Assembly: GCA_036003045.1 (NCBI GenBank)
Contig: DASYSS010000017.1
Span: 1-64,000, forward strand
Length of the DNA stretch: 64,000 nucleotides
Origin: Gemmatimonadaceae bacterium
Lineage (GTDB): Bacteria; Gemmatimonadota; Gemmatimonadetes; Gemmatimonadales; Gemmatimonadaceae
Direction of reading: 5' to 3'
The position numbers and the translations under genes were made by a program. The notes beneath the pieces are model-generated. The model was not told the origin of the DNA, made no database searches, and saw only the letters and a program-made list of their open reading frames with translations. This document shows, in pieces, positions 13,185 to 29,389 of the stretch (its first letter is position 1; each line of letters starts with the position of its first letter).

Positions 13185-14321
13185 CTATCGCGCTCCCTTG
13201 GCCGCGTTCGCGCTCGAAGGAGACGCAACCTGCTGGACCCGCGCGCCGTCGCGCAGCCGCTGCTGACCAGCCACCACGATCTGCTCGCCGGTCGCGACGC
13301 CCGATGTAATTTCGAGCGAATCACCGTGCGCGGCGCCGGTCGTCACTCGGCGCGCGTGCACGCGAGCCGCGTCATGATCGAGCACGTAGACGATCGTCGT
13401 CCCGTTGACGCCGCCGTCGTGTACCACCGCCGGAGCCGGCACCATCATGGCCGACGTCGACTCGCGCGTGTGGATCGTCGCCTCGGCGACCATCCCGGCG
13501 CGCAGCTTTCGCGCGGGATTCGGCACCGAAATTTCTACGGCGTAACTTCGCGTCGCGGGATCGGCGGCGACGCCGATGAGCGACACGCGTCCGGCGAAAC
13601 TCGTGTCCAGAGCCGGAATGCGCACGGTTGCCGTAGCACCTTCGGTGATGTGGCCGACGTCGGCTTCGGGAACGCCGACACGCACGCGAACCGGATCGAG
13701 CGCGACGATCGTGTAGACCGTCTGGCCGGCCGCGACGGTCGCGCCGACTTCTACGACTCGACGCGAAACGATGCCCGGGATGGGAGCTTCGAGCTTCGTG
13801 TCGGCCAAGTGCTTTTTCGCCAGATCCGCGGCCGCCGCGCTCTGACGCGCGCCGATCTCGAGGTGCTCCATCTCGGCCGGCGCGATTCCGCCCGACGCGA
13901 GCAGCGGCTGGTTGCGGTCACGATCGTGCGCCGCGCGATCGGATTGTGCGCCCGCCTGCTCGACGGCGAGTCGGTATTCCGTGGGATCGAGCGACGCGAT
14001 CGGCTGGCCGGCGCGAACGGACTGTCCTTCGTCCGGCCCGATCGTGACGACCTTGCCCGGCACTTGGAACGCGACGTCGACGCTGGCGTTCGCCTGCACG
14101 ATGCCGCTCGCGGTGGCTGACCACCCACGCGCCGAGAGCGAAATTGGCTGAGCGACGACGGGGATCGCACTGTCGGCGGCGTTCGTCGTCTTCGCGGCGG
14201 CGGGTGCGCACGCGGATGCCGCCGCGGCGACGCCGACAAGGGCGAGCGCGAGGAGCGCGGAATGCACTGCTGTGGTGATCGGGTTGGTCGATGCTGCGAC
14301 GGCGGTGCTACGCGATCTCAT
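13185..14321 (-). CDS. RND periplasmic adaptor (membrane fusion protein)
   Basis: A 378-residue HlyD/AcrA-type adaptor lipoprotein (lipobox ASAC). The layout is typical: a first lipoyl half (VVTIGPDEGQSVRAGQPIASLD), an alpha-hairpin of about 60 residues, a second lipoyl half (KLEAPIPGIVSRRVVEVGATV), a beta-barrel with VGVPEADVG, and a membrane-proximal domain. It would link the inner-membrane RND pump to the outer-membrane factor, here both in the next gene, 2 bp away. I chose the ATG giving MRSRSTAV because GGAGG lies 4 nt before it; the frame is open 33 bp further. A predicted TetR operator sits 36 bp upstream of this start. Confidence 0.92.
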   Translation of the reverse strand: MRSRSTAVAASTNPITTAVHSALLALALVGVAAAASACAPAAAKTTNAADSAIPVVAQPISLSARGWSATASGIVQANASVDVAFQVPGKVVTIGPDEGQSVRAGQPIASLDPTEYRLAVEQAGAQSDRAAHDRDRNQPLLASGGIAPAEMEHLEIGARQSAAAADLAKKHLADTKLEAPIPGIVSRRVVEVGATVAAGQTVYTIVALDPVRVRVGVPEADVGHITEGATATVRIPALDTSFAGRVSLIGVAADPATRSYAVEISVPNPARKLRAGMVAEATIHTRESTSAMMVPAPAVVHDGGVNGTTIVYVLDHDAARVHARRVTTGAAHGDSLEITSGVATGEQIVVAGQQRLRDGARVQQVASPSSANAAKGAR

Positions 14322-14356
14322 ACGTCCTCCACGAGTGGTGAACATCGGTATCACTG

Positions 14357-14432: not shown

Positions 14433-15104
14433 CTAGCGCGCTCGAGACTTCCGAGCCGGCGCGCCGTTCGTGCGAGCGTTGGCCTCGGCTTTCACGAGGC
14501 CGGCCAACGTTGCGTCGATGAGCCGGTGCGCGGTCTTCCGCGCGTCGCGCCATTCGACCCAACTGTTCGGCCCTTTGATGTTGTGCAGGGCCATGAAGCC
14601 ATGCGCGCTTCCCCAACAGATCTGTGCGACCTCTTCGGCGTCCTTGTACTCGGGCCGGAAGACACCAGCGGCGAGTCCGTCCTTCACCGTCTGTTTGAGA
14701 AACGCGTACGCGTTCCGCTCCGGATCGTCCTTCGCGACCTCCTCTCCGTCGGCAATGAACGCGTGCGGCGTGAGAAAGAGGAAACGGAAGTGGCTCGGAT
14801 GATCGACGGCGAAGTCCGAATAGACGTAGCCGATCCGCCGGAGACGCTCGACCGGATCGAGCGCGCCGAAGTTCGCGAACTGCTGGGCCAAGCTTCGGAG
14901 CTGCCTATAGCATAGCTCCTGGATGATGGCTTCCTTGTCGCGAAAGTGCGCGTAGATGACCGGCGGCGAGTACTCGATGGCCTCGGCGAGCGCGCGCATG
15001 GTGACGCCCTGGGCGCCATCCTTCGCAAACACCTCCAGGGCCGCGTCGAGAATCTTCTCGCGGACCTGCGTTCGCTCGCGTTGTCGTCGTTCCTTGACGC
15101 CCAT
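14433..15104 (-). CDS. TetR family transcriptional regulator
   Basis: A 223-residue TetR-type repressor. The N-terminal HTH is clear: KILDAALEVFAKDGAQGVTM, RALAEAIEYSPPVIYAHFRD, KEAIIQEL (about residues 18-65). The ligand domain (70-210) has the helices expected for the family, with AHGFMALHNIKG near the dimer region. It is the first gene of the operon tetR - adaptor - RND/OMF and presumably represses it until a pump substrate binds. A promoter-like TTGACG/17 bp/TAACTA with a near-palindrome inside it lies just upstream, so autoregulation is likely. The C-terminus is Lys/Arg-rich (ARKSRAR). Confidence 0.9.
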   Translation of the reverse strand: MGVKERRQRERTQVREKILDAALEVFAKDGAQGVTMRALAEAIEYSPPVIYAHFRDKEAIIQELCYRQLRSLAQQFANFGALDPVERLRRIGYVYSDFAVDHPSHFRFLFLTPHAFIADGEEVAKDDPERNAYAFLKQTVKDGLAAGVFRPEYKDAEEVAQICWGSAHGFMALHNIKGPNSWVEWRDARKTAHRLIDATLAGLVKAEANARTNGAPARKSRAR

Positions 15105-15395: not shown

Positions 15396-17627
15396 CTATG
15401 GCGTGCGAACGTCGAGCTCCGCGGCTGCATTGGCGCTCGTCATGCGCGCAGGCGGGAGCTCGCGGCGGACGGAGATCTCGAGGAGCTGTGCGGTCGCGCG
15501 GTTCACCGCGTCGGACTCGGTAGAGGTCGATGCGACGCCGGCGGCGAAGTCGAGCCAGGCGAGTGCGTCGTCGAAGGCGAAGCGGCGTTCGCAGGACTCG
15601 ACGGCCTGCATGGCGAACTTGTAGGCCATGGTTCGTTCGCCCGCCTGCTCGGCGTGTCGCGCGATCTCACCGGGATCCACGTACTCGGCGCGCTCCGACC
15701 CGACGAGCTCCATCGCGAGCGCGAGCCCGCGATGCACTTCGCGCTTGCGGGATTTCCCGAGCTCGTCGCCCATGACGCGCCCGATCACCGGATGCGCGAC
15801 GCGGTACGCTCCGTTGTCCTCGACGACCAAGTGACGCTCGACGAGCGCGTCGCCGATCGCCGCGGCGCGGAGGCGGGAAATGCCGTGCACGTGAGACATC
15901 ACGTCGGTTCTGCAGCCACGCGTCGAGACCGCGATCGTGATCAGCACCCCTTTGAGCTCGTCCGACAGACACTCGATTCGCTCGGCGATTGCTTCGTGGA
16001 CAGAGGGCAGCGTGAGCGCGGGCTCGTCGCCCGAGTCGCTCGGACGGACGATCCACTCGCCGCTCTCGGGCTCGACGGTCAGCCAGCCCTGAGCGAAGAG
16101 CGTCTTGAGCAGCTCGACTATATAGAACGGGTAACCCGCCGTCACTTCATAGATGCGCGACGCCAGCCGGTGCGCTCCGGCCGGTGTGCTCACTCGACCG
16201 AGTCCACGCACGAGCTGCCAGACTTCGTCTTCATTCAGCGGTCGAAGCGCGACGACCTCACACGCCGGCGATCCTCGCAACGCGCGCACCCAGCGCGCCG
16301 CCGCGGAGTCGCGCTCCACGGCGCCGAGCGCGAAGGTGACGAACCAGAGAATCGCCGCGCGCTCGAGCTTGCGCACGAGAAAGTGGAGCAGCGCGCAGCT
16401 GTCGGCGTCGATCCACTGCACGTCGTCGATGAGTACCGTGACCGGAGTCTCTTCCGAAATCGCGAGCAGCATCTGTGCGATCCCCTCGAAGAGACGCCAG
16501 CTGTCCGCGGTAGACGCGGGTCCGACGGCGGGAAGTCCGGCGAAACGTTGACGCAGCTCGGGCACGACGCGCACGATTTCCGTCAGCCACTGGGGGTCAG
16601 TCCCGCTCAGCCCTGGCGCGTCGATCCCCGAGCGAAGCGCTTCGATCATCGCGCCGAACGGCACGCCGACGCGCGCGTCGAATCCGCGTCCGCGAAGTAC
16701 CGTGCCTCCCTCGGCGGTCACCCAGCGCGCGAAGTCGTCGGCGAGTCGGGATTTGCCGACGCCGGATTCGCCTTCGACGATCACGACGCGCGACTTGCTC
16801 TGCGCGACGGCGCGCCACGACGCGCGCAGGCGGTCCCACTCGCGATCCCGGCCGATGAGGCTTCCGTAAAACGATGGCGCGGCTGCGTACCATTCTTCGG
16901 TCGCTTGTCGTTTGGCTTCGCCGCTCGCACGCGAGTCGTGGATCCGTTGCGCCATCTCGACGAGCCGGTGATCCGGACGCTCGTCGGCGTCGAGACGCGA
17001 CCGATAGTCGGCGAACGCTTGCAACGCCGCCGAACGATTGCGCGCGAGAAACTGCGATTCCATCAAGGCGAGCGTCGCGTCGGCGGAGAAGTCATCGACG
17101 GTCACCCATCGCTCGGCGACTCGTACGGCATCGCGCGAACGATTGCTGGCAATCGATTCTCGTACGGCCGCCGCGAGCACGCCGGCGTACCGTCGGAGAA
17201 GCGTGTGGCGCTTTTCATCGGCCCACTCGTCGAATCCAGCCGAGCGTCGCAACTGGAGCCCGCGGAGGAAATGCGGGATGTCGACATCGGCCGCGTCGCG
17301 GGGTGAGCTATCGGCGGCAGCAAGAAACCGGCGGATGTCGCTGTCCGGCTCCGAGACGAGAAAGACCGACGCGCGATCCGTGTAAAGTGCCTCGCCGAGT
17401 GCGTCGCGGAGATGCGCGAGCGCCTGTCGGAGCGAGGCGCGGGCTTTCTCCTCCGGGTATTCGCCCCAGAGCATGGCCATGATCTCGTCCCGGCTATGAG
17501 CTCCCGGCTCGAGCGCCAGAAACGCAAGCAAAGCCAAGCTCTTGTTGCCGAGCGACGCCGCGGGCAAAGGACCACCGTCGAGAGCCGCAGCGACGCGGCC
17601 GCACAACGTGAGTGACAGCGCGGACAT
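15396..17627 (-). CDS. BTAD/AAA+ (SARP-like) transcriptional regulator
   Basis: A 743-residue regulator. The N-terminal part (about 1-90) is an OmpR-like winged helix (KSLALLAFLALEP, RDEIMAMLWGEYPEEKARAS, LRQALAHLRDAL). Next is the bacterial transcriptional activation domain (about 95-235). An AAA+ ATPase follows, with Walker A GESGVGKS (286-293) and Walker B VLIDDVQW (398-405); the rest is a helical sensor region typical of AfsR- or MalT-like STAND proteins. Such proteins activate nearby gene clusters. It diverges from the tandem small-peptide genes across a 194-bp spacer, so control of the peptide/HlyD/M50 cluster is a reasonable guess. The target is not shown by the sequence. Confidence 0.85.
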   Translation of the reverse strand: MSALSLTLCGRVAAALDGGPLPAASLGNKSLALLAFLALEPGAHSRDEIMAMLWGEYPEEKARASLRQALAHLRDALGEALYTDRASVFLVSEPDSDIRRFLAAADSSPRDAADVDIPHFLRGLQLRRSAGFDEWADEKRHTLLRRYAGVLAAAVRESIASNRSRDAVRVAERWVTVDDFSADATLALMESQFLARNRSAALQAFADYRSRLDADERPDHRLVEMAQRIHDSRASGEAKRQATEEWYAAAPSFYGSLIGRDREWDRLRASWRAVAQSKSRVVIVEGESGVGKSRLADDFARWVTAEGGTVLRGRGFDARVGVPFGAMIEALRSGIDAPGLSGTDPQWLTEIVRVVPELRQRFAGLPAVGPASTADSWRLFEGIAQMLLAISEETPVTVLIDDVQWIDADSCALLHFLVRKLERAAILWFVTFALGAVERDSAAARWVRALRGSPACEVVALRPLNEDEVWQLVRGLGRVSTPAGAHRLASRIYEVTAGYPFYIVELLKTLFAQGWLTVEPESGEWIVRPSDSGDEPALTLPSVHEAIAERIECLSDELKGVLITIAVSTRGCRTDVMSHVHGISRLRAAAIGDALVERHLVVEDNGAYRVAHPVIGRVMGDELGKSRKREVHRGLALAMELVGSERAEYVDPGEIARHAEQAGERTMAYKFAMQAVESCERRFAFDDALAWLDFAAGVASTSTESDAVNRATAQLLEISVRRELPPARMTSANAAAELDVRTP

Positions 17628-17821: not shown

Positions 17822-17968
17822 ATGAGCAAGGAAAAAGAGATCGTCCGAATCGACCTGACGAAGGCCCAGAAGGAAGTCGTGAAGAAGGAGACGGGGAAGG
17901 ATGCCGAGGCCATCGAGTTGACGGTCAACGAGCTCGAAGAGCGCATTGCCCCAATCATGAATTATTGA
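17822..17968 (+). CDS. Small 48-residue peptide, copy A (putative exported or precursor peptide)
   Basis: A 48-residue ORF starting MSKEKEIVRIDLTKAQK and ending ELEERIAPIMNY. GGAAAGG precedes the ATG at a usable distance. It is 79 % identical (38/48) to the next small gene; eight of the ten differences are conservative or neutral, and three of them form the variable C-terminal tail (MNY against VQW). Such strict conservation between tandem copies shows that both are real genes. The peptide is hydrophilic and helical with no signal peptide. It precedes genes for HlyD adaptors and a PqqD-like/M50 protein, so a role as precursor or export substrate is inferred. I know no named family for it. Confidence 0.85.
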   Translation: MSKEKEIVRIDLTKAQKEVVKKETGKDAEAIELTVNELEERIAPIMNY

Positions 17969-18066
17969 GTAAAGCTGCCGAAACCGATGTTAACTCGCCG
18001 TAAGTACCGCTGAGCCATTAGTTCCGTAGCCTCCTTTCCTAAACAAACTCCCTTATAGGTGCGATC

Positions 18067-18213
18067 ATGAGCAAGGAAAAAGAGACCGTCCGAATCGACC
18101 TCACGAAGACTCAGAAGCAGAACGTGAAGAAGGAAACGGGAAAGGATGTCGAGTCGATCGAGTTGACGGTGAGTGAGCTCGAGGAGCGCATCGCACCCAT
18201 CGTGCAGTGGTAA
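18067..18213 (+). CDS. Small 48-residue peptide, copy B (putative exported or precursor peptide)
   Basis: The second tandem copy starts MSKEKETVRIDLTKTQK and ends ELEERIAPIVQW, exactly the same length as copy A. AGGTG lies 6 nt before the ATG. Sequence shared by both copies: the first six residues, VRIDLTK, VKKETGKD, IELTV, ELEERIAPI; only the last three residues are wholly different. The gene is followed within 25 bp by a strong intrinsic terminator, so the two peptides form their own short transcript. ELEERIAP recalls the LEPR-XLL type of secretion-associated motif, but this is only a visual resemblance. Confidence 0.85.
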   Translation: MSKEKETVRIDLTKTQKQNVKKETGKDVESIELTVSELEERIAPIVQW

Positions 18214-18236
18214 CGCCGTAGAACTGGCGTTAAATG

Positions 18237-18269
18237 GGCGGGGGAGCCAACGGCTCCCCCGCCTTTTTT
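18237..18269 (+). terminator. Rho-independent terminator after the peptide genes
   Basis: A perfect 12-bp GC-rich stem (18237-18248 and 18252-18263) with a 3-nt loop is followed immediately by six T. This is the clearest intrinsic terminator in the window. It ends the two-peptide transcript 126 bp before the GTG start of the GAF-HlyD gene, so the peptides can be expressed at a level different from that of the downstream machinery. Confidence 0.93.
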
Positions 18270-18395
18270 CTTGGGGAAGCGTTCCGCCCTTCCCACTGTT
18301 CCGCATAGCCCGCCGCCGGTCGCCTGTCCCCGTATTGCGGCTGAGACCGGGTCGTACCACGTTTGCCGTCCCTCCCCCGCTGACTCCTTCCTCCG

Positions 18396-20312
18396 GTGAC
18401 GGCGACCGACTTGCCGCTGACGGCAACGCCTGTGGGACAAGCGGCGCTGCCCGACGTTTTCGATCCGCTTCACGGCGCGCTGGTCGAGCTCGCGGCCAGT
18501 CTCGACGCGCGCGAGATCGAGACGAAGACAGTTTCTTTCGCCCGCGCGATTCTTCGAGCGGACCGAGTCTCGGCGTGGATTGAGCGAGACGGTTCCCTGA
18601 CCTGCTGGATAGCGAACGGCGAAGGCGCCGAGCAGGTGACCGGAGCGACGGCGCCGCTCGAAGCGCTGGAGCCGGCGATGGAAGATGAGGAAGGAATGGC
18701 GATCCTCGTCACGCCATTTCGCCCCTCGGAATCGGCACTCGGTGCGCTTCGTGTCGCGCGCGATCTCGCCGCACACGGCGCGTTCACACCCGCGGAGCAG
18801 GTCGCGTTCAGCCGTCTCGCCGAAGTCGCCGGCGTCGCGCTGCGAAACGCCGAGCGTGTCGCGGCGAACGATCGGACGAGTGATCTCGAGCTGATCATGG
18901 AGATGAGCCGCGCGATCGGATCGACGCTCGATCTCGATCGTGTGATGCGCGCGGTGGTGAATCTCGCGATGCGCGCCATTCGATTCGACCGCGGCGCGAT
19001 CGCGCTCTACGAGCGCGGCAAGTGCGACATCCGCGCGCTCGCCGGCGTCGAGAAGTTCGACCGCGAGGATCCGGAGCTCCAGGATCTCGCCGTGCGAGGC
19101 GCGTGGGCCGCCGGCGTCGGCGAAGCGTTCTACCTCTCGGACCGGACCGAAGCCGCGTCGGACGCCGAACGACTCTTTCTCCAGATCTTTGAAGGCGATC
19201 TCGAGGCGGATGGCGTGAGGAGCGGTTTGTACATCCCGCTCAAGGACGACGAGGGCGTGCTCGGCATCCTGCTCTTCGAAGCCGAGCGTCCCGAGTTTGC
19301 GACGGAGCGGCAGCGCGAGCTGGCGACGATTCTCGCGAATCAGGCGACGGTCGCGCTTCGCAACGCGCAGCTCTACCAGCAAGTTCCCCTCGCCGACACG
19401 CTGGGCGCGATCCACGCCAAGAAGGAGCAGCTGCTCGCGTTGCCGGCGGCCCGAAGACTCACGTGGGCGATCGTCGCCGCGGTGGTGATCGCGTCGCTGA
19501 CGCTCATTCAGTGGCCGCTGCGAGTCGACGGAAACCAGCCGGTTTTTCGGCCAAACGTCCGCACCCAGATCCGGCCGCTCGTCGACGGCGTCGTGGAGCG
19601 TGTCTTCATCCGAGAAGGCGCACGCGTGACGCGCGGCGATCCGATCATGCAATTGCGCGACGTCGATCAACGAGCGGCGCGTGACGCGGCGCTGTCGGAT
19701 GCCGCGAGCGCCGAGCGCGAAGCGACATCGGCGTCCGCGCGCGGCGACGCGGCCGAGGAGCGGCTGCATCGAATGCGCGCCGACGCGCTGCGCCGCGAGG
19801 CGGCCGTGCTCGATCAACAAGTTCGCGGGGCGCTCGTGCGGAGTCCGGTCACCGGCGTCGTGCTGACGCCCAGGCCGCAAGAAAAACTCGGTTCATGGGT
19901 GGAGGCAGGGAGCGAATTGATCGTCGTCGGTCGCACCGACACGCTCGAGTTGGACCTCAACGTGGACGAGCGCGACATCGCCCGAATTCGTATCGGCGAC
20001 GAAGTGCGCCTGCGAGTGGACGCATATCCGCAGCGGACGTTCTCGGGACACGTGACGGCGATTTCGCCCGTGGGGGTGGGGGTCGGCGTGGACGGGTCGA
20101 CGGGTGGACAGGTGGTCGGGTCTAACGGCGCTACTGGAAACGGCGCGAGCGGGTTTCCTGTGCGAGCACTGGTTCCGAATGACTCCGATCTGGTGCGCCC
20201 CGGGATGGTAGCGTATGCCCGCGTTCTCACCGATCCGTCATCCGTACTTGGTCGAGTGACGCGTGAACCTTGGCGGAGATTGCGGCTCTTCTGGTGGAGG
20301 ATCTGGTCGTGA
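18396..20312 (+). CDS. GAF-GAF-HlyD fusion protein
   Basis: A 638-residue protein starting at GTG. Two GAF-like domains occupy about 30-155 and 165-325 (VGVALRNAERV and QATVALRNAQLYQQV are their closing helices). A single TM segment spans about 355-373, and an HlyD-type periplasmic region follows (VDGVVERVFIREGARVTRGDPIMQL, a short helical hairpin, VRSPVTGVVLTP, beta-barrel with VDERDIARIRIGDEV). The topology puts sensor domains in the cytoplasm and the adaptor in the periplasm, so export might be gated by a small ligand. No strong ribosome site is visible. Its stop overlaps the next gene's GTG by 4 bp, and a low-complexity Gly/Val segment lies near 555-580. Confidence 0.85.
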   Translation: MTATDLPLTATPVGQAALPDVFDPLHGALVELAASLDAREIETKTVSFARAILRADRVSAWIERDGSLTCWIANGEGAEQVTGATAPLEALEPAMEDEEGMAILVTPFRPSESALGALRVARDLAAHGAFTPAEQVAFSRLAEVAGVALRNAERVAANDRTSDLELIMEMSRAIGSTLDLDRVMRAVVNLAMRAIRFDRGAIALYERGKCDIRALAGVEKFDREDPELQDLAVRGAWAAGVGEAFYLSDRTEAASDAERLFLQIFEGDLEADGVRSGLYIPLKDDEGVLGILLFEAERPEFATERQRELATILANQATVALRNAQLYQQVPLADTLGAIHAKKEQLLALPAARRLTWAIVAAVVIASLTLIQWPLRVDGNQPVFRPNVRTQIRPLVDGVVERVFIREGARVTRGDPIMQLRDVDQRAARDAALSDAASAEREATSASARGDAAEERLHRMRADALRREAAVLDQQVRGALVRSPVTGVVLTPRPQEKLGSWVEAGSELIVVGRTDTLELDLNVDERDIARIRIGDEVRLRVDAYPQRTFSGHVTAISPVGVGVGVDGSTGGQVVGSNGATGNGASGFPVRALVPNDSDLVRPGMVAYARVLTDPSSVLGRVTREPWRRLRLFWWRIWS

Positions 20313-21331
20313 GGAAGATCGGGCAATCGGGATACCGGGCTACCGGGATACCGCGACTCACCGTGGCGGGCAGTGTGAAGTCGGCGTGCCTGACCACAAT
20401 CGTTGCGACGATGATGGCTTGTAGTCGACAGTCGAACGTCGTACCGAAGAAAGCAACGGTTCAGACGGCGGCTGGCATCCTCGTCGACACGACCACGGTG
20501 AGGGTACCACTGCGGTTGCCGGCGCAGCTCTACGTCGAGCATGATGCCGTCGTAGTCGCGCGCGCCGCGGGGAACGTGGACTCGGTGCTGGCCGATTTGA
20601 ACGATCACGTCGCGAACGGCGCACCGTTAGCGTTGTTGGAGAACGCCGATCAGCAGATCGCTCTCGCTCAGGCCGACGCGTCGTTCGAGAATCTGAGTAA
20701 AGTCGTGGCGCGTGCGCGGTTGATGACGAAGGCGGGGGGCATCACCGTCGCCGACTCGGAGCAGGCGGAATTCCAGTACCAGCAGGCGGATCTCGCGCGA
20801 CGGAAAGCGCGGCGGGACATTGAGCTCACCAAGGTCATCGCGCCGTTCAATGGAGTCGTCACGGCGCGATATGCCCGCGCCGGACGCTTCGTGAACGTCG
20901 GCGACACGCTCTTTCGCGTCACCGAGACGTCGCCGCTCATGGCGCGAGTTCGCGTGCCGGAAGCAACGGCGGCGAGCGTGCACGTCGGCGACCATGCGAC
21001 GGTGTCCAATGACGCCGGAGCGACGGCGAGTGCAATCGTGGCCAGCGCCGCCCCGGTCATCGACGCGGCGAGCGGAACGCGCGAAGTCGTGCTTCGGGTT
21101 GGCGAAACGTCGCGGCTCATCCCGGGCGCGAGCGTCACCGTTCGGCTCGGCGCCGAGCGACGGCGCGTCGTCGCGATTCCGCGCGACGCGGTGGCGCCGG
21201 ACGGCTTCGTGCTCGTCGTCGAGGGAGCCGGGACCGCGCTTCGTCCCGTCACGGTCGGCGCAGATCTCGGCGACGGTCGCGTCGAGATCGTGAACGGCCT
21301 GTCGCCCGGCGAGCGGATCGCTCGGCGCTGA
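20309..21331 (+). CDS. HlyD-type periplasmic adaptor lipoprotein
   Basis: A 340-residue membrane fusion protein. The GTG start overlaps the stop of the GAF-HlyD gene (GTGA) and has GGAGG 9 nt upstream; an open frame upstream of it is overlap only. The signal peptide ends in a weak lipobox (TMMAC). The adaptor core follows: first lipoyl half with NVDSVLADLNDHVANGAP, short hairpin (ADQQIALAQADASFENLSKV), second lipoyl half KVIAPFNGVVTARYARAGRF, then a barrel with ARVRVPEATAASVHVGDHA and a membrane-proximal domain ending GLSPGERIARR. It would form part of an envelope-spanning exporter with its two neighbours. No dedicated pump or ATPase lies beside it. Confidence 0.88.
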   Translation: MRKIGQSGYRATGIPRLTVAGSVKSACLTTIVATMMACSRQSNVVPKKATVQTAAGILVDTTTVRVPLRLPAQLYVEHDAVVVARAAGNVDSVLADLNDHVANGAPLALLENADQQIALAQADASFENLSKVVARARLMTKAGGITVADSEQAEFQYQQADLARRKARRDIELTKVIAPFNGVVTARYARAGRFVNVGDTLFRVTETSPLMARVRVPEATAASVHVGDHATVSNDAGATASAIVASAAPVIDAASGTREVVLRVGETSRLIPGASVTVRLGAERRRVVAIPRDAVAPDGFVLVVEGAGTALRPVTVGADLGDGRVEIVNGLSPGERIARR

Positions 21332-21332
21332 C

Positions 21333-23456
21333 ATGGCCACCGCGGCATTCATCGCCGACGCGAGCGGAGCGCGGGGGGCGTTCCTTCCACGGCTTCGACC
21401 GGATCTGACGATCGTCGAGCAGCTCTTCAAAGGTGAGAAGAGCTTCGTCGTCAAGGACCCGACTACCAGAAAGTACTTTCGCTTCGGCGCGGTCGAGATC
21501 GCCGTGATGCGCTGTTTCGACGGCCGACGCACGCCCGACGACATCGCGCGCGCGCTTGCCGACCAAGGAATGAAAGTTCCGTCGCGAGCCGTCGAAGGCT
21601 TCGCGCGGAAGCTTTCGTCGATCGGCGTGTTGGAACGAACGCTCGTCGAGCGCACGACGCTCGAGCTGGAGCGCTTGCGCGCGGAGCGACGAAAGCGGCG
21701 CCAACCCGCGCTGTTCGCCGGCGAGCTGCTGCGGATGCGTTGGTCGATGGGAGACCCCGATCAGTTGTTCAACAGGATTCTTCCCACGATCCGCTGGTGC
21801 TTCACGCCGGCGTTTCTCGCGGCGTGCGTGCTCCTTTTCGCCGCATACTTCGGAGTTCTTGCCGCACGGTGGGACGAGTTCTCGCACACGATCGCTCAAC
21901 TGTATTCATTCGCCAACATCACCTTTGGCGCGGTCGTGGTGCTCTGGTGCACCGCGTTAGTCGTCATTCTCATTCACGAGCTGGGCCACGCATTCACGTG
22001 CAAGCATTTCGGCGGCGAGGTGCACGAGATGGGATTCATGCTCGTGTACTTTCAGCCGGCGTTCTACGCCAACGTCACCGACGCGTGGAGTTTTCCCGAA
22101 GTGCGCTCGAGGCTCTGGGTCACCGCCGCGGGGGCCTGGATTCAATTCGCCGCCGCGGGGTTTGCGGCCCTGGTCTGGTCGGTCGCTCGTCCCGGCACTC
22201 TCGTGGCGGAGATCGCGCTGGCAGCGATGCTGATCGGCGGAGCGACGACGGTTCTCACGAATATGAACCCGCTCATCCCGCTCGACGGCTACTTCGCGCT
22301 GACCGATTGGCTCGAGATCCCGAATCTCCGTCAACGGGCGCTGGCGTACGTCGGATGGTGGCTGCGCCGCCACACTCTGCGGCTGGACATGCCCGAGCCT
22401 CCAGTGAGTGGCCGGGAGAAGCGCGTCTTCCTTGTGTACGGCAGTCTCGCCGTGTGCTACATCGCGCTGCTGTTCGCGCTGATCGGGTCCTGGTTCGTTG
22501 GAAAAGCGCGAGCGGGGCTCGGTGCGTTGGGAGTCACGCTCGCGCTCGCGCTGATCTTCACGCTGGCCCGAAAGACGATCGTCGAATGGGCGCGCGCCGT
22601 CGTCATGGCCGTTCGCATGCAACGGGCCGAGCGAGGACGCCGATGGGGTTGGAAGCGAATCGCCGCCTCCGGCATGGCAGCCGGGCTGATTGCGATAGTA
22701 ATCATGGCGATGATTCCGTGGAATCTCACGGCGTCGGGTCAATTCGTGCTGGCGCCGGTGAGAACGTTCGGCCTCGTCGCGCCAGACAGCGGGATCCTCG
22801 CCGAAGTGTTCGTGCGTGAAGGAACGCGAGTCCCGGCGGGAGCCCCGGTGGCGCGCATCGTGGATCGCTCGCTCGAGCGAGAGCTTTTGTCCGCGGCGCG
22901 AGTCGTCGATTCTCTGAGCGTCGCCGCGCTGCGCGCTCGAGCGACTAATCAATCGGCGACGGCGGCACAGCTCGACGACCAGCGCAGCGCCGCGTCGGCG
23001 CGCCTCTCAGGCTTACAGAAGCGAATCGACGCGCTGACACTCCGCGCGCAATGGAGTGGCGTCGTCACGACTCCGCGCGTCGAGGAACAGACCGGACGCC
23101 GAGTCGACTACGGCACGAGCATTCTGACGATCGCGACAGTCGATTCCCTGGAGGCTCGCATCGCGCTCGACGGTGCGGGATCGACGCGAGTGCGAGCCGG
23201 ACAGGTGGTGAATCTCGTCACGAACGCCGATCCGGCATCGCGCGTCGTCGCGACGGTCGACGCGGTTTCACCGGCTGGACGCGGGCTGAACGGTGTGGCG
23301 GGGGGAACGATCGAGGCGCGTGTCCCCGTCCGCACTGACGGCGCGTGGCGCGTGGCCGCGACGGGTGAGGCGAAAGTGGAAATTCAGCGGTCGTCGCTGC
23401 TCGGGGCGATGTGGTGGACTCTGAGGCAACGCGTGCGCGGCGATATTCTTCTCTAA
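21333..23456 (+). CDS. PqqD-like/M50 site-2 protease/HlyD fusion protein
   Basis: A 707-residue fusion whose ATG follows the adaptor stop after 1 bp. Residues about 20-105 resemble a PqqD/RRE winged helix (RKYFRFGAVEIAVMRCFDGR, then a C-terminal helix SSIGVL), the type of domain that binds leader peptides. Residues about 150-480 form a polytopic M50 metalloprotease with HELGH at 215-219 and MNPLIPLDGYFAL, giving Asp318 as third zinc ligand. The C-terminal part (about 480-707) is an HlyD-like lipoyl/barrel domain (DSGILAEVFVREGTRVPAGAPV, TLRAQWSGVVTTP). All catalytic residues are present, so it may be an active intramembrane protease that binds and hands substrates to the envelope adaptors. 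Confidence 0.87.
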   Translation: MATAAFIADASGARGAFLPRLRPDLTIVEQLFKGEKSFVVKDPTTRKYFRFGAVEIAVMRCFDGRRTPDDIARALADQGMKVPSRAVEGFARKLSSIGVLERTLVERTTLELERLRAERRKRRQPALFAGELLRMRWSMGDPDQLFNRILPTIRWCFTPAFLAACVLLFAAYFGVLAARWDEFSHTIAQLYSFANITFGAVVVLWCTALVVILIHELGHAFTCKHFGGEVHEMGFMLVYFQPAFYANVTDAWSFPEVRSRLWVTAAGAWIQFAAAGFAALVWSVARPGTLVAEIALAAMLIGGATTVLTNMNPLIPLDGYFALTDWLEIPNLRQRALAYVGWWLRRHTLRLDMPEPPVSGREKRVFLVYGSLAVCYIALLFALIGSWFVGKARAGLGALGVTLALALIFTLARKTIVEWARAVVMAVRMQRAERGRRWGWKRIAASGMAAGLIAIVIMAMIPWNLTASGQFVLAPVRTFGLVAPDSGILAEVFVREGTRVPAGAPVARIVDRSLERELLSAARVVDSLSVAALRARATNQSATAAQLDDQRSAASARLSGLQKRIDALTLRAQWSGVVTTPRVEEQTGRRVDYGTSILTIATVDSLEARIALDGAGSTRVRAGQVVNLVTNADPASRVVATVDAVSPAGRGLNGVAGGTIEARVPVRTDGAWRVAATGEAKVEIQRSSLLGAMWWTLRQRVRGDILL

Positions 23457-24157: not shown

Positions 24158-24536
24158 TTACCCTTCGATCCGGGCCGCAAACGCCGCCGGCAAGGGTCCG
24201 GCCGGAATCAGTTCCTTGCCGGTGAGATCCACTCGAAGGTTGAGTCCTTCGAGTCCGTGCGCGCCCAGTAGCACCATGTCCCCATCGCGCGCAAACACGA
24301 CCACCGACGGGCCGGAGTCGTCCGGCCGCGTAGAGCAACGCGAATCCAACTTCATGCTCGAGAATGCGGCCGTCGGTCGTCTCGAACCGGTCGACGCGCA
24401 CCGGAGTGACACCGAGGTCGATCAGGACGTCGCTCGGAATCCAGTTGTACTCACTGCCCGTGTCCACCATGACGGGTGTTGGGATCTTGGGTTGGCATTC
24501 TACCCGAGTATTGCCTCCGTTGGGTAGGATGTCAAC
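24158..24536 (-). pseudogene. Frameshifted retropepsin-like (clan AA) aspartic protease
   Basis: Two frames give the two halves of one small protease. The upstream frame holds PVMVDTGSEYNWIPSDVLID (the Asp-Thr-Gly active site), then VDRFETTDGRILEHEVGFAL. The second frame continues SVVVFARDGDMVLLGAHGLE and ends AARIEG. The break is near 24318-24330. The first part also lacks a credible start codon: the frame runs straight through a TTGACA-like region. Intact members are about 120 residues, cytoplasmic and often next to toxin-like genes. Read as a decayed gene; a sequencing error would also explain the frameshift. Confidence 0.7.
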
Positions 24537-24603
24537 CCGAGTCGCCTTTGTCGGCCGAAGGCAGCGCCGTTCCCGCGGTCTTGACGAGGCTGCTCCGGCG
24601 GTG

Positions 24604-26271
24604 ATGTTCACCGCCATGACCGTCCAGCGCGCGCTCTTGTTGCTCGCGTCTACCGCCTCCCTCGCCGGCGCGCAGGCGCGTCGTCCGCCGCTCGATTCCG
24701 CGGCGATCGCGGATGTCGCTCGATTGCTCCGGCTCGAGGACGTACGGCGCTTCGACACACTCGAGCTCGTTGGCGCGCTCGGATCGAAGCATCCGGAAGT
24801 GCGCCGTCGCGCGATGCTCGCCATCGCGCACATCAATGACAAGCGCGGCGTCGCGCTGCTGCGTGCCCGGCCGCTCGACGCCGACACCGCACTTGCCGCC
24901 ACGGCGGTCTTCGCCGTCGGGCAGCTCCGCGACATGCTCACGATTCCGTGGTTCGACAGCTTGCTCGCGAATCCGAGCACCGCGCCGACGGTGGCGGTGG
25001 AGGCGGCGTGCGCACTGGGAAAAATCAAAACCGCAGCGGCCCGGGAGGTGCTCGCGCGCTATCTGACGCGAGCCAACGTCGCGCCGAATACGCGCGATGC
25101 GATCGGCGAAGCGCTGCTCGCCATCGGTCGCTCGACCGCCCGCGGCAACATCGCCCCGATCGTTCGCTTCACGAGCTCGCCCGACGAAGAGATCCGATGG
25201 CGCGCGACGTGGGCGCTCTTCCGCCCGCGCGATCCCGCGGCGGTCGCCGAGCTGCTGCGACTCAGCGGCGATCCCTCGGCGCTGGTCCGATCGTGGGCCG
25301 TGCGCGGCCTGGTCAAATCGCAAGCCGATTCCGCATCGCTCGGCGATCGCGCCGAAGCGAAGCTGATTGCCGCGACCCGAGACGACGATCGTCGCGTACG
25401 CACGGAAGCCGTGCGGGCGCTCGGCACCTACCCCGATTCGCAGGCAGTCGCGGCGCTGGTGACGGCGCTCGCGGCACCCGACGCATGGCTTTCGGTGAGC
25501 GCGGCCGAAGGACTCGGACGAGCGCGCGGACCGTCTGCCGTCGCGGCACTCGTCGCCGCGAGCGACGGGTCGCGCCCGTGCGCGCTACGCGCGACGGCGA
25601 TTCGTCAGCTGCAACCGTTCGCCAACGCCGAAGCGCGCACCGCGGCATCAGCGCTGGCGAGCGACACTGTGCCCTACTGTCAGAATGTTGCCGCGCAGAT
25701 CCTGCGCGACACGTCGGGCGGGGGAACCGGTCGCGGCGGAGGCAGAGGACGCGGCCGTCAGCCCCAACCGCTCGTCGAGCGACCATTCGGCGAGTACCGC
25801 GCCATCGTGGAGCGGTGGGTGGTCCCGGCGTATGAAGGAAAGCCGCTGCCGCGCGCCGAATGGCAGACGCCGCGCGGCACGATCGAGCTCGAGCTGTACG
25901 CCGGCGATGCGCCGCTCGCCATGGATGCTCTCGCGCGCATCACCGAACGGGGAACGATCGTCGGCACGGAGTTCACGCGCGTCGTGCCGGATTTCGTCGA
26001 TCAGCAAGCGACGATCCGGGACGCCGCCCTACAGCGGGACGAAGTGAATCGCCATCGTCTGACGCGCGGCAATCTCGCGTGGGCGAGTGCGGGACTCGAC
26101 ACGGGACGGCCAGGCTACACGCTCAATCACACCCCGCAGCCGCACAACGAGGGCGACTTCACGTCACTCGGCAGAGTGGTTCGCGGCCAAGAGGTCGTCG
26201 ACCGGATCGAGCTCGGTGATCGTATCACCGCGGCACGCATGATTTCCAACATGCCCCACCCATCATCTTGA
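24604..26271 (+). CDS. HEAT-repeat protein with cyclophilin-type PPIase domain
   Basis: A 555-residue secreted protein. The start gives a signal peptide ending in LAGAQA; a second ATG at 24616 is equally good. Residues about 25-365 are tandem HEAT-like helical pairs (HPEVRRRAMLAIAHIND, APTVAVEAACALGKIKTAAA, DEEIRWRATWALFRP, DRRVRTEAVRALGTYPD). A Gly/Arg-rich linker (GGGTGRGGGRGRGRQ) leads to a cyclophilin-like peptidyl-prolyl isomerase domain (about 415-545; GTIELELYAGDAPLAMDALA, LGRVVRGQEVVDRIE). Several active-site positions of classical cyclophilins are not conserved as I read it, so activity is uncertain. It is probably periplasmic and involved in folding or scaffolding. Confidence 0.85.
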   Translation: MFTAMTVQRALLLLASTASLAGAQARRPPLDSAAIADVARLLRLEDVRRFDTLELVGALGSKHPEVRRRAMLAIAHINDKRGVALLRARPLDADTALAATAVFAVGQLRDMLTIPWFDSLLANPSTAPTVAVEAACALGKIKTAAAREVLARYLTRANVAPNTRDAIGEALLAIGRSTARGNIAPIVRFTSSPDEEIRWRATWALFRPRDPAAVAELLRLSGDPSALVRSWAVRGLVKSQADSASLGDRAEAKLIAATRDDDRRVRTEAVRALGTYPDSQAVAALVTALAAPDAWLSVSAAEGLGRARGPSAVAALVAASDGSRPCALRATAIRQLQPFANAEARTAASALASDTVPYCQNVAAQILRDTSGGGTGRGGGRGRGRQPQPLVERPFGEYRAIVERWVVPAYEGKPLPRAEWQTPRGTIELELYAGDAPLAMDALARITERGTIVGTEFTRVVPDFVDQQATIRDAALQRDEVNRHRLTRGNLAWASAGLDTGRPGYTLNHTPQPHNEGDFTSLGRVVRGQEVVDRIELGDRITAARMISNMPHPSS

Positions 26272-26339: not shown

Positions 26340-26681
26340 GTGCCGCAGAACGACCAGTCCGGCGACATGATCCAGGGCATGCTCGACATGCTCATCCTCA
26401 AGGCACTCAGTCTCGCCCCGATGCACGGATGGGGGATCACGGAGCGGATCCACCAGTGGTCCGAGCAAGCACTGGCCGTGAATCAGGGCTCGCTCTACCC
26501 CGCCCTCTATCGCCTCAAGCGCCAGGGGTGGATCGCGTCCGACTGGCGCACCACCGAGAACAACCGCCGCGCGCGGTACTACTCGCTCACGACCGCCGGC
26601 CGGCGTCAGCTTGCCGCTGAGCAACGGGGTTGGGAACGGCTGTCGCGCGGCATCCAGCTCGTGTTGAGGATGGAACCATGA
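26340..26681 (+). CDS. PadR family transcriptional regulator (paired with ADOP 1)
   Basis: A 113-residue PadR-type winged-helix repressor: GMLDMLILKALSLAPMHGWG, then VNQGSLYPALYRLKRQGWI and the wing NNRRARYYSLTTAGRRQLA. The GTG start has GAGAGGAG just upstream. TTGACA at 26286-26291 could be its -35 element; the -10 is unclear. Its stop overlaps the ATG of the following ADOP permease (ATGA), the standard arrangement for this pair in Acidobacteria and Gemmatimonadota. It is nearly the same length and sequence as the PadR at 47645. The ligand is unknown. Confidence 0.93.
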   Translation: MPQNDQSGDMIQGMLDMLILKALSLAPMHGWGITERIHQWSEQALAVNQGSLYPALYRLKRQGWIASDWRTTENNRRARYYSLTTAGRRQLAAEQRGWERLSRGIQLVLRMEP

Positions 26682-29389
26682 GCTGGTGGCGGAGGATCGT
26701 GTCCGAGCTCCGCCGCATTGTCGGCGGGATGACGGCTGAGCGTGAAGATGGGGCGATGCGTGAAGAGATGCAGTTTCACATCGACATGCACGCCGCCAAG
26801 CTGCGGGACCAGGGCGTCGGCATTGAGGAATCGCGCCGGCGGGCGGCGGTCGCGTTCGGCGGGGCTCAGTGGATCGACGCCGCGCGCGACGAATATCGTA
26901 GCCGCCCGCTCGACGAGCTCGCGCGCGACGTCCGGTTCGTGTTTCGCTCGCTCGACAACGCGCCGGCGTTTACGGCCACCGCGCTCCTCACCCTCTCGAT
27001 AGGCATCGGCGCAGCGGCGGCGATTTTTACCGTCGTAAACGACGTCGTGCTGCGCGCGCTTCCGTACGGCCGGCCGCAGCAGCTCGCGTCGATCTCGCAC
27101 GACATGAAGAAGCTGTCGTTCAACAACGCCGGCATCACGCCGAACATGTATTTGACGTATCGGCAACAAGCCCGGTCATTGCGCGGCATCGCGCTCTACC
27201 GCACCACGTCGGTCAACGCGAGCGACGCCGACGGCGCCGGCAACCCGGAGCGGGTCACGTCGGCGTTCGTGAGTGGCAACTTCATGACGATGTTCGAGGT
27301 GCCGGCGGCCAAAGGCCGAGCGCTGTCGGAGGCGGACGACGTGCCGAAGGCGCCGAACGTGATCGTGATCAGCGACGGACTGTGGCGCGCACGGTTCGGC
27401 GCGGACCCGAACGTCGTCGGCAAGAAGCTTCTCATCGCCGGCGCGTTGCGCGAGATCGTCGGCGTGATGCCGGCGTCCTTCCGCGTGCCGGCGGCGAACA
27501 CACAAGTCTGGTTTCCATTGCAGCTCGACACGACCGCCGCGTGGCTCGGCGGCTTCAACTCGCGGGCGTATGCGCGTCTCGCGCCTGGGGCGACCGTCGA
27601 TGCCGTCCAGCGCGAGCTGGCCGCGGCGCTGCCGCGCACGATCGAACGCTATCCGCTCATCGCGCCGGGCGTGACGACCAAGCTCTTGATCGAGCAGGGC
27701 AATCCGGCGCCGACGGTCACGCCGTTGCGCGACGATCTGGTCGCCGGTGTTGCGCCGACGCTGTGGCTCCTCGCCGCGGCCGCCGGCCTTGTTCTGCTCG
27801 TCATGTGCGCGAATGTCGCCAATCTCATGCTCGTGCGCGCGGAAGCCCGGCAACGCGAGATCGCTGTTCGCGCCGCCATGGGCGCGTCTCACGCGCGCCT
27901 CGTGTCGCACTTCCTCACCGAATCGCTCGTCCTCGCGGTCATCGCTTCGGTAATCGGTTTCGTCGGGGCGACCGCCGCGGTCCGGCTCCTCGTCGGAGCG
28001 AGCCCGATAGAGATCCCGCGGCTGGCCGAGGTCCACGTCGATCTGGCGACCGTTGGGTTCATCATCGTGACGAGCGTGTTGGTCGCCGCCGCCTGCGCGA
28101 TCGCGCCCGCCGTTCGCTCGTTGCGAAGCGGCGTCTTTGTGGGGCTGCGCGATTCCGGCCGCGGGTCGACGTCGGGCAGCGCCCGCGCCCGCGCGCGATC
28201 GATCCTCGTCGGCGTGCAGATGGCGCTGGCGCTCGTCGCCCTCGTCGCATCGGGCCTCCTGTTGCGCAGCTTCGAGCGATTGCGAGCAGTGAAGCCCGGG
28301 TTCGACGCCAATGGAATCGCCACGCTGTGGGTGGCGGCGCCGGCGACGCGGTATCCGAAGGATTCGGACGTCGTACGTTTTCAAACCGAGCTCGCGACGC
28401 GCGTCAGCGCGCTGCCGGGGGTGACCGAAGCGGGCATCACCACCGACCTTCCACTCGCGTCGTCGGGCCATAACGGCGATCCGCTTTACGTGGAGGGCAC
28501 GGCCGATCACTCGAAAGCGATTCCGCCACTCCAGATCTATTCGGCCGCGGATGCGGGATACTTCCGTGCCCTGCGCATTCCGCTCGTGAAGGGACGGCTC
28601 TTCGGTCCGCCGCCCACACAGCGATGGGACGAAGCCGTGGTCAGCACCGAAACGGCAAAACAGATGTTCGGGGACTCGACTGGCGCCACCGTTCTGGGCA
28701 AACGCTTCCAGATCCTACCGAGCGGGCCGCTGTACACGGTCGTCGGTGTGGTCGGCAGCGCGCGCGACACGTCGCTCGCCCTTCCGCCGACGCGAACTGT
28801 CTACATGCCACCCGTGGTGAGCCAGGATTCGATCGAGACTCCGACGGGGCGCACCGTCGCGCTCGTCGCGCGCACCGCCGGCGATGTGGACGCGACGACT
28901 CGCGCGATGCGGCGCGTCGTTCACGATCTGGATCCGACGCTGCCGACGTTCGACGCGCGCCCGCTTGCCGAAATCGTGCGCGCCTCCACGGCTCGTCTCG
29001 CGTTCGTTATGGTCATGCTCGGCGTTGCCGCGGGCGTGACGCTGCTGCTCGGCGTGGTCGGGCTGTATGGCGTGATCGCGTTCGTCGTTTCGCTCCGGAC
29101 GCGCGAGCTTGGCCTCCGCATCGCCCTCGGCGCGACCCCGTGGGGAGTCGCCGCGATGGTGGCGCGACGCGGACTCGAACTGGCCGCGCTCGGTGCGATC
29201 GCGGGGACGATCGTCTCGGCCCTCGTCGCGCGATTCCTGAGAGCATTTCTGTTCGAGGTCACTCCGCTCGATCCCGCGATTTTGGCCGCGGCGATCGTCG
29301 TGTTGACGGCGTGCGCGCTTGCGGCGAGTTGGATCCCGGCTCGTCGCGCCGCGCGACTCGATCCGTCGAGCGCGCTCAGGGCCGAGTAG
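26678..29389 (+). CDS. ADOP-type ABC transporter permease 1
   Basis: A 903-residue acidobacterial duplicated orphan permease. The N-terminal ADOP helix region (about 1-70; EDGAMREEMQFHIDMHAAKL, SRRRAAVAFGG) precedes two FtsX/MacB-like units. Each has a first TM (ATALLTLSIGIGAAAAIFTV), a MacB-type periplasmic domain and three further TMs; the C-terminus WIPARRAARLDPSSALRAE is characteristic. The permease would normally work with a MacB-like ATPase, but none is near. The start is fixed by the 4-bp overlap with padR, although the frame is open 48 bp further upstream. Usual roles of MacB-fold permeases are mechanotransmission and export rather than transport through the membrane. Confidence 0.92.
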   Translation: MSWWRRIVSELRRIVGGMTAEREDGAMREEMQFHIDMHAAKLRDQGVGIEESRRRAAVAFGGAQWIDAARDEYRSRPLDELARDVRFVFRSLDNAPAFTATALLTLSIGIGAAAAIFTVVNDVVLRALPYGRPQQLASISHDMKKLSFNNAGITPNMYLTYRQQARSLRGIALYRTTSVNASDADGAGNPERVTSAFVSGNFMTMFEVPAAKGRALSEADDVPKAPNVIVISDGLWRARFGADPNVVGKKLLIAGALREIVGVMPASFRVPAANTQVWFPLQLDTTAAWLGGFNSRAYARLAPGATVDAVQRELAAALPRTIERYPLIAPGVTTKLLIEQGNPAPTVTPLRDDLVAGVAPTLWLLAAAAGLVLLVMCANVANLMLVRAEARQREIAVRAAMGASHARLVSHFLTESLVLAVIASVIGFVGATAAVRLLVGASPIEIPRLAEVHVDLATVGFIIVTSVLVAAACAIAPAVRSLRSGVFVGLRDSGRGSTSGSARARARSILVGVQMALALVALVASGLLLRSFERLRAVKPGFDANGIATLWVAAPATRYPKDSDVVRFQTELATRVSALPGVTEAGITTDLPLASSGHNGDPLYVEGTADHSKAIPPLQIYSAADAGYFRALRIPLVKGRLFGPPPTQRWDEAVVSTETAKQMFGDSTGATVLGKRFQILPSGPLYTVVGVVGSARDTSLALPPTRTVYMPPVVSQDSIETPTGRTVALVARTAGDVDATTRAMRRVVHDLDPTLPTFDARPLAEIVRASTARLAFVMVMLGVAAGVTLLLGVVGLYGVIAFVVSLRTRELGLRIALGATPWGVAAMVARRGLELAALGAIAGTIVSALVARFLRAFLFEVTPLDPAILAAAIVVLTACALAASWIPARRAARLDPSSALRAE

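Follow-up and report, generated by a model that had tools for sequence, protein, structure and literature searches.

An RRE-M50-HlyD cassette of Gemmatimonadaceae as a candidate leader-guided machine for peptide processing and export

What are two tiny, closely related peptides doing upstream of three genes that encode membrane fusion proteins? The question is raised by a 64,000-nucleotide stretch of DNA (the window; positions 1-64,000, forward strand, of contig DASYSS010000017.1, assembly GCA_036003045.1) from a soil bacterium of the Gemmatimonadaceae. A cassette at 17822-23456 on the forward strand comprises two paralogous peptides of 48 residues, followed by genes for a GAF-HlyD protein, a lipoprotein-like HlyD adaptor and an RRE-M50-HlyD fusion (Table 1), each located where an earlier note on this DNA had claimed tandem peptides and three HlyD-bearing genes. 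The source genome has these two peptides of the profile type and one RRE-M50-HlyD gene, with no further copies. The same note had suggested that one protein binds a peptide, cuts it and passes it on to the envelope; co-inheritance, the RRE fold and the sequence motifs support this view, and the cassette quite probably encodes a leader-guided processing and export machine, in which the RRE would bind the leader, the M50 protease would cut after an AP dipeptide and the HlyD parts would route the product out.

The RRE-M50-HlyD fusion is 707 residues long. Its N-terminus was previously described as PqqD/RRE-like, and the fold check bears this out: the AlphaFold2 (AF2) model of the domain (predicted local distance difference test, pLDDT, 91) has three strands and three helices in the order E-E-E-H-H-H, and its top fold matches in the PDB are TfuB1 (Z 10.9), TbiB1 (Z 10.0) and PqqD (Z 9.1). 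The TfuB1 and TbiB1 structures are lasso-peptide RREs in complex with leader peptides. A sequence-profile search of the PDB with E up to 1 returns five chains, all of which bear an RRE (PaaA, TfuB1, PqqD, TbiB1 and PqqCD). In the full-length model (pLDDT 88.8), the RRE is followed by a membrane protease core, the last membrane helix and the HlyD part; a PDB fold search with the whole protein is filled by adaptor domains and gives no independent match to an M50 fold. The daptide peptidase model NF041824 matches residues 20-423 (6.8e-60), spanning both the RRE and the protease, and is matched by 39/39 homologues. An intact site-2 protease with an HlyD domain of its own, as proposed earlier, is what these data describe: the key residues of both M50 motifs are invariant among the homologues, and the HlyD part is matched by Pfam and by Foldseek.

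The two peptides have the features expected of precursors. They are equal in length and 79% identical, and all three of their last residues differ (IMNY vs IVQW), in agreement with the remark that they diverge most at the C-terminus. Their codons differ by 8 synonymous and 10 non-synonymous changes, giving a non-synonymous rate (dN) of 0.12 and a synonymous rate (dS) of 0.59 (ratio ~0.2; 0.08 and 0.65 for the leader alone); the pair thus behaves as coding sequence under purifying selection. The conserved leader that had been suspected is evident in an alignment of 67 peptides as a near-fixed ELEERIAP region, with E(-8) in 97%, L(-7) in 100%, E(-6) in 99%, R(-4) in 99%, I(-3) in 84%, A(-2) in 85% and P(-1) in 100%. 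The core that follows is variable (3-3.7 bits at most positions) and 3 to 27 residues long, with a median of 7.

The closest parallel is found in daptides, whose precursors carry the leader ELExMEAP; RRE-dependent processing by MpaB/MpaC requires L(-7) and M(-4) of this leader, and MpaP, an RRE-dependent intramembrane peptidase, is credited with its removal (PMC10036551). Daptide precursors, too, are small, come in multiple copies and have ELExxxAP in equal register directly before the core, and MpaP/DapP (NF041824) likewise has an RRE fused to an intramembrane M50 protease. By analogy with this leader register and peptidase, a cut is expected just after AP and would leave the cores IMNY and IVQW. 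The differences are as plain. The window peptides have R(-4) and I(-3) in place of M and E, and end in Y/W rather than in the invariant C-terminal Thr of daptides; the window M50 protein has an extra HlyD domain and adjoining GAF-HlyD and HlyD genes, and the cassette, unlike daptide clusters, is without an ABC transporter. No decarboxylase, aminotransferase or methyltransferase is present among the annotated genes between 8.7 and 29.4 kb of the window. Since the biosynthetic enzymes and the C-terminal Thr are absent, this is not a daptide cluster.

Within Gemmatimonadota, a search with the peptide profile brings up this cassette in more than 20 further genomes; the cassette is therefore real and not a product of chance. 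The profile matches 38/395 genomes, and the M50 profile 27/298. Counts compiled from the profile-match listings for the 298 genomes common to both scans are 20 with both, three with the peptide only, seven with M50 only and 268 with neither (Fisher p 2e-22, a value that ignores relatedness and is inflated by it). The idea of a chance neighbourhood was considered and is ruled out by these counts. The check proposed earlier, whether homologous peptides lie beside GAF-HlyD and M50-HlyD genes, thus gives 20 of 23 peptide-positive genomes with M50, and in one of the other three a contig end cuts off the locus; homologous peptides are seldom found without the system, contrary to what the note had named as refuting its view. 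Most relatives keep the order BTAD regulator, peptides, GAF-HlyD, HlyD, M50-HlyD, with one to three peptides immediately upstream of GAF-HlyD; three other families of the class have the peptide downstream, and the genes past the M50 gene show no conservation. A protein profile was used in this phylum because a degenerate DNA pattern for LE[ED]R[IV]AP is uninformative in its GC-rich genomes, where a control pattern is equally frequent.

In two of the M50-only genomes, a divergent M50-HlyD gene is immediately preceded by a different peptide of 44 residues with KLEERIAP or KLEQRIAP (L126:10161-10295 and L130:10027-10161; KLE[EQ]RIAPDLVGGISIG..., with acidic/His-rich tails). Orphan peptides that lie apart from the cassette also occur in cassette-bearing genomes, which makes action of the system in trans likely; some share an NHNET core. 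Six peptides combine the cassette-type leader with a conserved core such as RLASNHNETxL (L022:8783-8965, L023:1851-2906, L093:5607-5876, L095:9324-9518, L096:6325-6573 and L103:8855-9115), and only the L022 copy adjoins a cassette.

When 84,980 genomes are scanned with the M50 alignment, RRE-M50-HlyD genes turn up in Planctomycetota, Magnetococcales, Oligoflexia/Bdellovibrio, SAR324, Alteromonadaceae, Betaproteobacteria, Verrucomicrobia and Acidobacteria. At 23 of 50 such loci outside Gemmatimonadota, LE[ED]R[IV][AST]P lies near the N-terminus of an open reading frame (ORF); as a control, the same set of stretches, reversed, gives 0 occurrences of the strict leader motif. These leader ORFs range from ~60 residues (Pseudogulbenkiania, with tandem GYEGQPGNQG repeats) to repeat proteins of 850-1,800 residues. 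A 226-residue Planctomycetota protein encoded just upstream of GAF-HlyD combines a Gemmatimonadota-like IRISLTEEQ stretch with LEDRIAP, and TolC-like genes recur at the loci outside Gemmatimonadota. The peptide-processing reading of the earlier note thus stands but was too narrow, as the machine family also adjoins motif-bearing proteins of up to ~1,800 residues. Betaproteobacterial precursors (L190:536-718, L191:2687-2944, L201:8322-8714 and L202:8673-8897) combine EELEERIA[PS] leaders with core units that repeat, among them GYEGQPGNQG, and lie immediately upstream of RRE-M50-HlyD. Two giant proteins adjoining M50-HlyD (L159:5215-8619 and L164:214-3360) have a variant N-terminus, KLDEIVAPGALG, a possible divergent leader.

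Taken as a machine, the cassette could operate as follows. The cytosolic RRE of the 707-residue protein would bind the conserved leader, chiefly via ELEERIAP, and the fused protease would cut just after AP to free the short C-terminal core. The envelope path would consist of the HlyD lipoprotein, the GAF-HlyD protein and the HlyD domain of the fusion, and is probably joined by a TolC-type outer membrane channel encoded elsewhere. Ligand sensing by GAF and the divergently encoded BTAD-AAA protein may control the system. The products would most likely be peptides secreted for signalling or for antagonism; a core that varies, precursors in several copies and a regulator fit both roles and favour neither.

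Several points weigh against this scheme. We infer, rather than observe, RRE binding, the cut after AP, the direction of transport and export via the HlyD parts, the energy source and the role of the product; no ATPase is encoded in the cassette, and a core of 3-7 residues makes a very short export product. Seven M50-positive Gemmatimonadota genomes are without a full profile peptide. Outside this phylum, 27 of the 50 loci show no leader ORF in the stretch examined (several of these stretches are short, and some of the genomes have the motif elsewhere), no N-terminal LExR motif is seen beside the M50-HlyD genes of Verrucomicrobia and several others, and at least one of the ten pattern-positive Magnetococcia genomes with a close M50 homologue described below, G469, has only a doubtful match. 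Finally, the NF041824 score of the window protein (203) is below the curated cut-off of 300, and its Pfam matches to PqqD and M50 are below the Pfam cut-offs (for M50, 22.7 bits vs 27.2). Despite these scores, the RRE and M50 identities are confirmed by the RRE fold together with the full-length match to the daptide RRE-M50 model.

The 48-residue proteins could instead be uncut regulatory or chaperone subunits that dock onto the HlyD/M50 complex via ELEERIAP. The predicted cores are mostly only 3-15 residues long and the conserved part, ~37 residues, exceeds the needs of a cut site, as a subunit would have it; this account is nevertheless unlikely, given that the motif is also N-terminal on very large proteins adjoining the same machine, as a leader would be, that a variable core always follows AP on its C-terminal side, that leader removal is attributed to the daptide peptidase, to which the fusion is related, and that orphan peptides with longer cores exist. 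Similarly improbable is a true ribosomally synthesized and post-translationally modified peptide (RiPP), the core of which would be modified by unlinked enzymes before cutting, leaving only maturation and export to RRE-M50-HlyD. RRE domains are typical of RiPP pathways, the precursors have a leader and a core, and an NHNET-like core is common to several orphan precursors of different genera, as if for a shared modification. However, the conserved cassette is without a dedicated modifying enzyme in more than 20 relatives, and hence not a RiPP system in the strict sense; no enzyme family is common to the neighbours of orphan peptides when their neighbourhoods are compared for a shared modifying enzyme, and the cassette cores offer no fixed residue as a modification site. 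An ordinary adaptor set for efflux of small molecules or metals, with peptides as chance neighbours, is very improbable: adaptors of the HlyD/RND type are widespread, and one accompanies an RND pump upstream in the window, but the peptides and M50 are strongly co-inherited, lie next to each other across the phylum and share their motif with other phyla.

The leader-guided machine resembles several other described systems in part. HlyD-family periplasmic adaptors are shared with type I secretion and tripartite efflux (HlyD, MacA, AcrA), and TolC-type partners adjoin homologous cassettes in other phyla; in the cassette, however, an RRE-protease takes the place of the ABC, RND or MFS inner-membrane pump. 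With no ABC exporter gene, the cassette is not a type I secretion system, and the earlier judgement that it is neither a standard RiPP nor a type I cluster is sustained. The epipeptide protease YydH/LiaK (NF058609) is also an M50-type protease acting on a small peptide, but its match is limited to the protease core (1.1e-9) and takes in neither an RRE nor HlyD, and a radical SAM enzyme is not seen at the window locus. NHLP bacteriocin export was considered and rejected (TIGR03794 adaptor score 11.6 bits vs a cut-off of 156.2). By analogy, the cassette would combine the function of a daptide leader peptidase with a set of tripartite adaptors. In the open literature, with most subscription journals and bioRxiv preprints outside coverage, LEERIAP/LEDRIAP is nowhere mentioned, the system is nowhere described, and no paper joins M50, HlyD and PqqD/RRE save the daptide paper (site-2 protease and RRE). 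By elimination, we judge the system to be categorically new: the components are known, the combination and the cargo rule are not, and no described family fits.

A possible second cargo type comes into view in Magnetococcia. A close M50 homologue is present in 10/48 genomes, and the LE[ED]R[IV]AP DNA pattern is found in 10/10 of these vs 2/38 others (1e-8, inflated by relatedness); the matches in the two genomes without the close homologue look non-coding. More distant M50 paralogues reach up to 13 matches per genome, and their cassettes (L286-L297) contain TolC-like, HlyD, HlyD-type and M50-HlyD genes. At five of these 12 loci a large neighbouring protein has its start in view, with the sequence LE[DE]RIL[LM]SA; the NCBI LEPR-XLL model (NF012209) places four of the five starts above its cut-off and one just below. 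Like the cassette-type leader, LEPR-XLL is a short N-terminal LExR motif, here on giant proteins with a paralogous RRE-M50-HlyD cassette alongside; the motif differs (LE[ED]RILLSA vs LE[ED]RIAP), and NF012209 has no match at E up to 1 in the window peptides or the scanned LEERIAP proteins. Ten of the 12 paralogue loci encode a SecA-like ATPase, which is absent from the window cassette. The L286-L297 cassettes are thus a candidate dedicated secretion system for LEPR-XLL proteins, as judged from sequence.

With some caution, we lean towards a broader proposal: RRE-M50-HlyD may define an undescribed family of secretion systems in diderm bacteria, in which the RRE reads an N-terminal LExR leader (LE[ED]RIAP, or LE[ED]RILLSA in LEPR-XLL giants), the intramembrane protease removes it and HlyD/TolC parts take the product, with the SecA-like ATPase present in LEPR-XLL cassettes and absent with tiny-peptide cargo. 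At one end of the cargo range would then stand a 3-residue core, and at the other proteins of more than 1,500 residues. If true, this names the cellular machine that reads LEERIAP-type and LEPR-XLL-type N-terminal tags, the latter a catalogued domain of giant proteins with only passing mentions in the open literature searched; links two separate fields, RiPP leader recognition and protein secretion; and offers a compact genetic system whose steps can each be put to the test with two peptides and three membrane proteins.

The two HlyD adaptors, one of them GAF-bearing, are as first described, and their HlyD and GAF matches are above the Pfam cut-offs. The GAF-HlyD protein has GAF at residues 179-321, one transmembrane (TM) segment at ~347-373 and HlyD at ~391-558; a lipobox-like motif is found by pattern search in 9/12 relatives of the second adaptor. 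Two elements were unremarked in the earlier note, the BTAD-AAA regulator, whose divergent orientation relative to the peptides is kept in most relatives, and a hairpin resembling an intrinsic terminator (-35.8 kcal/mol, z -2.95). As the hairpin follows peptide 2, more peptide than exporter may be produced. Terminator-like hairpins with T tails of uneven quality occur in 7/20 cassettes, so that an intergenic terminator is only partly supported as a conserved feature.

Table 1. Features of the cassette and its regulator (window positions).
Feature	Positions	Strand	Evidence
BTAD-AAA (AfsR/SARP-like) regulator, divergent from peptides	15396-17627	-	Pfam AAA_16 1.8e-24, BTAD 5e-5
Precursor peptide 1, 48 residues	17822-17968	+	ORF; paralogue identity; dN/dS
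ELEERIAP leader motif, peptide 1 (residues 37-44)	17930-17953	+	Conservation across 67 peptides
Predicted core IMNY, peptide 1	17954-17965	+	Follows P(-1); analogy with daptide ELExMEAP/core
Precursor peptide 2, 48 residues	18067-18213	+	ORF; paralogue identity
ELEERIAP leader motif, peptide 2	18175-18198	+	Alignment of 67 peptides
Predicted core IVQW, peptide 2	18199-18210	+	Alignment of 67 peptides
Intrinsic-terminator-like hairpin between peptides and exporter genes	18236-18264	+	13-pair stem and T tail
GAF-TM-HlyD membrane fusion protein	18396-20312	+	Pfam GAF 7.7e-13, HlyD_D23 3.4e-20
HlyD/RND-type periplasmic adaptor, probable lipoprotein (lipobox MMAC)	~20270-21331	+	TIGR01730 5.7e-45
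RRE-M50-HlyD fusion protein, 707 residues	21333-23456	+	Pfam, NCBIfam matches; AF2 model
RRE/PqqD-like domain (residues 19-103)	21387-21641	+	AF2 pLDDT 91; TbiB1/TfuB1/PqqD matches
Membrane-embedded M50 (site-2 protease) core (residues 142-434)	21756-22634	+	NF041824 alignment; AF2 helices
HELGH zinc/catalytic motif (residues 215-219)	21975-21989	+	H215, E216, H219 invariant, 39 proteins
NPLIPLDG second M50 motif (residues 312-319)	22266-22289	+	N312, P313, D318 invariant, 39 proteins
HlyD/membrane-fusion domain (residues 462-690)	22716-23402	+	Pfam HlyD_3 3.3e-10; Foldseek MacA 3e-14

Other genes flank the cassette in the window. Upstream, a single ORF joins the RND pump (ACR_tran) to a TolC-like OEP domain (8668-13182, reverse strand), with its HlyD adaptor at 13185-14354 and a TetR regulator at 14433-15104. 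Downstream, a HEAT-repeat protein fused to a cyclophilin-type peptidyl-prolyl isomerase (24364-26271, forward strand) is followed by a PadR regulator and then a MacB/FtsX-type permease without a match to an ATPase domain (26340-29389, forward strand).

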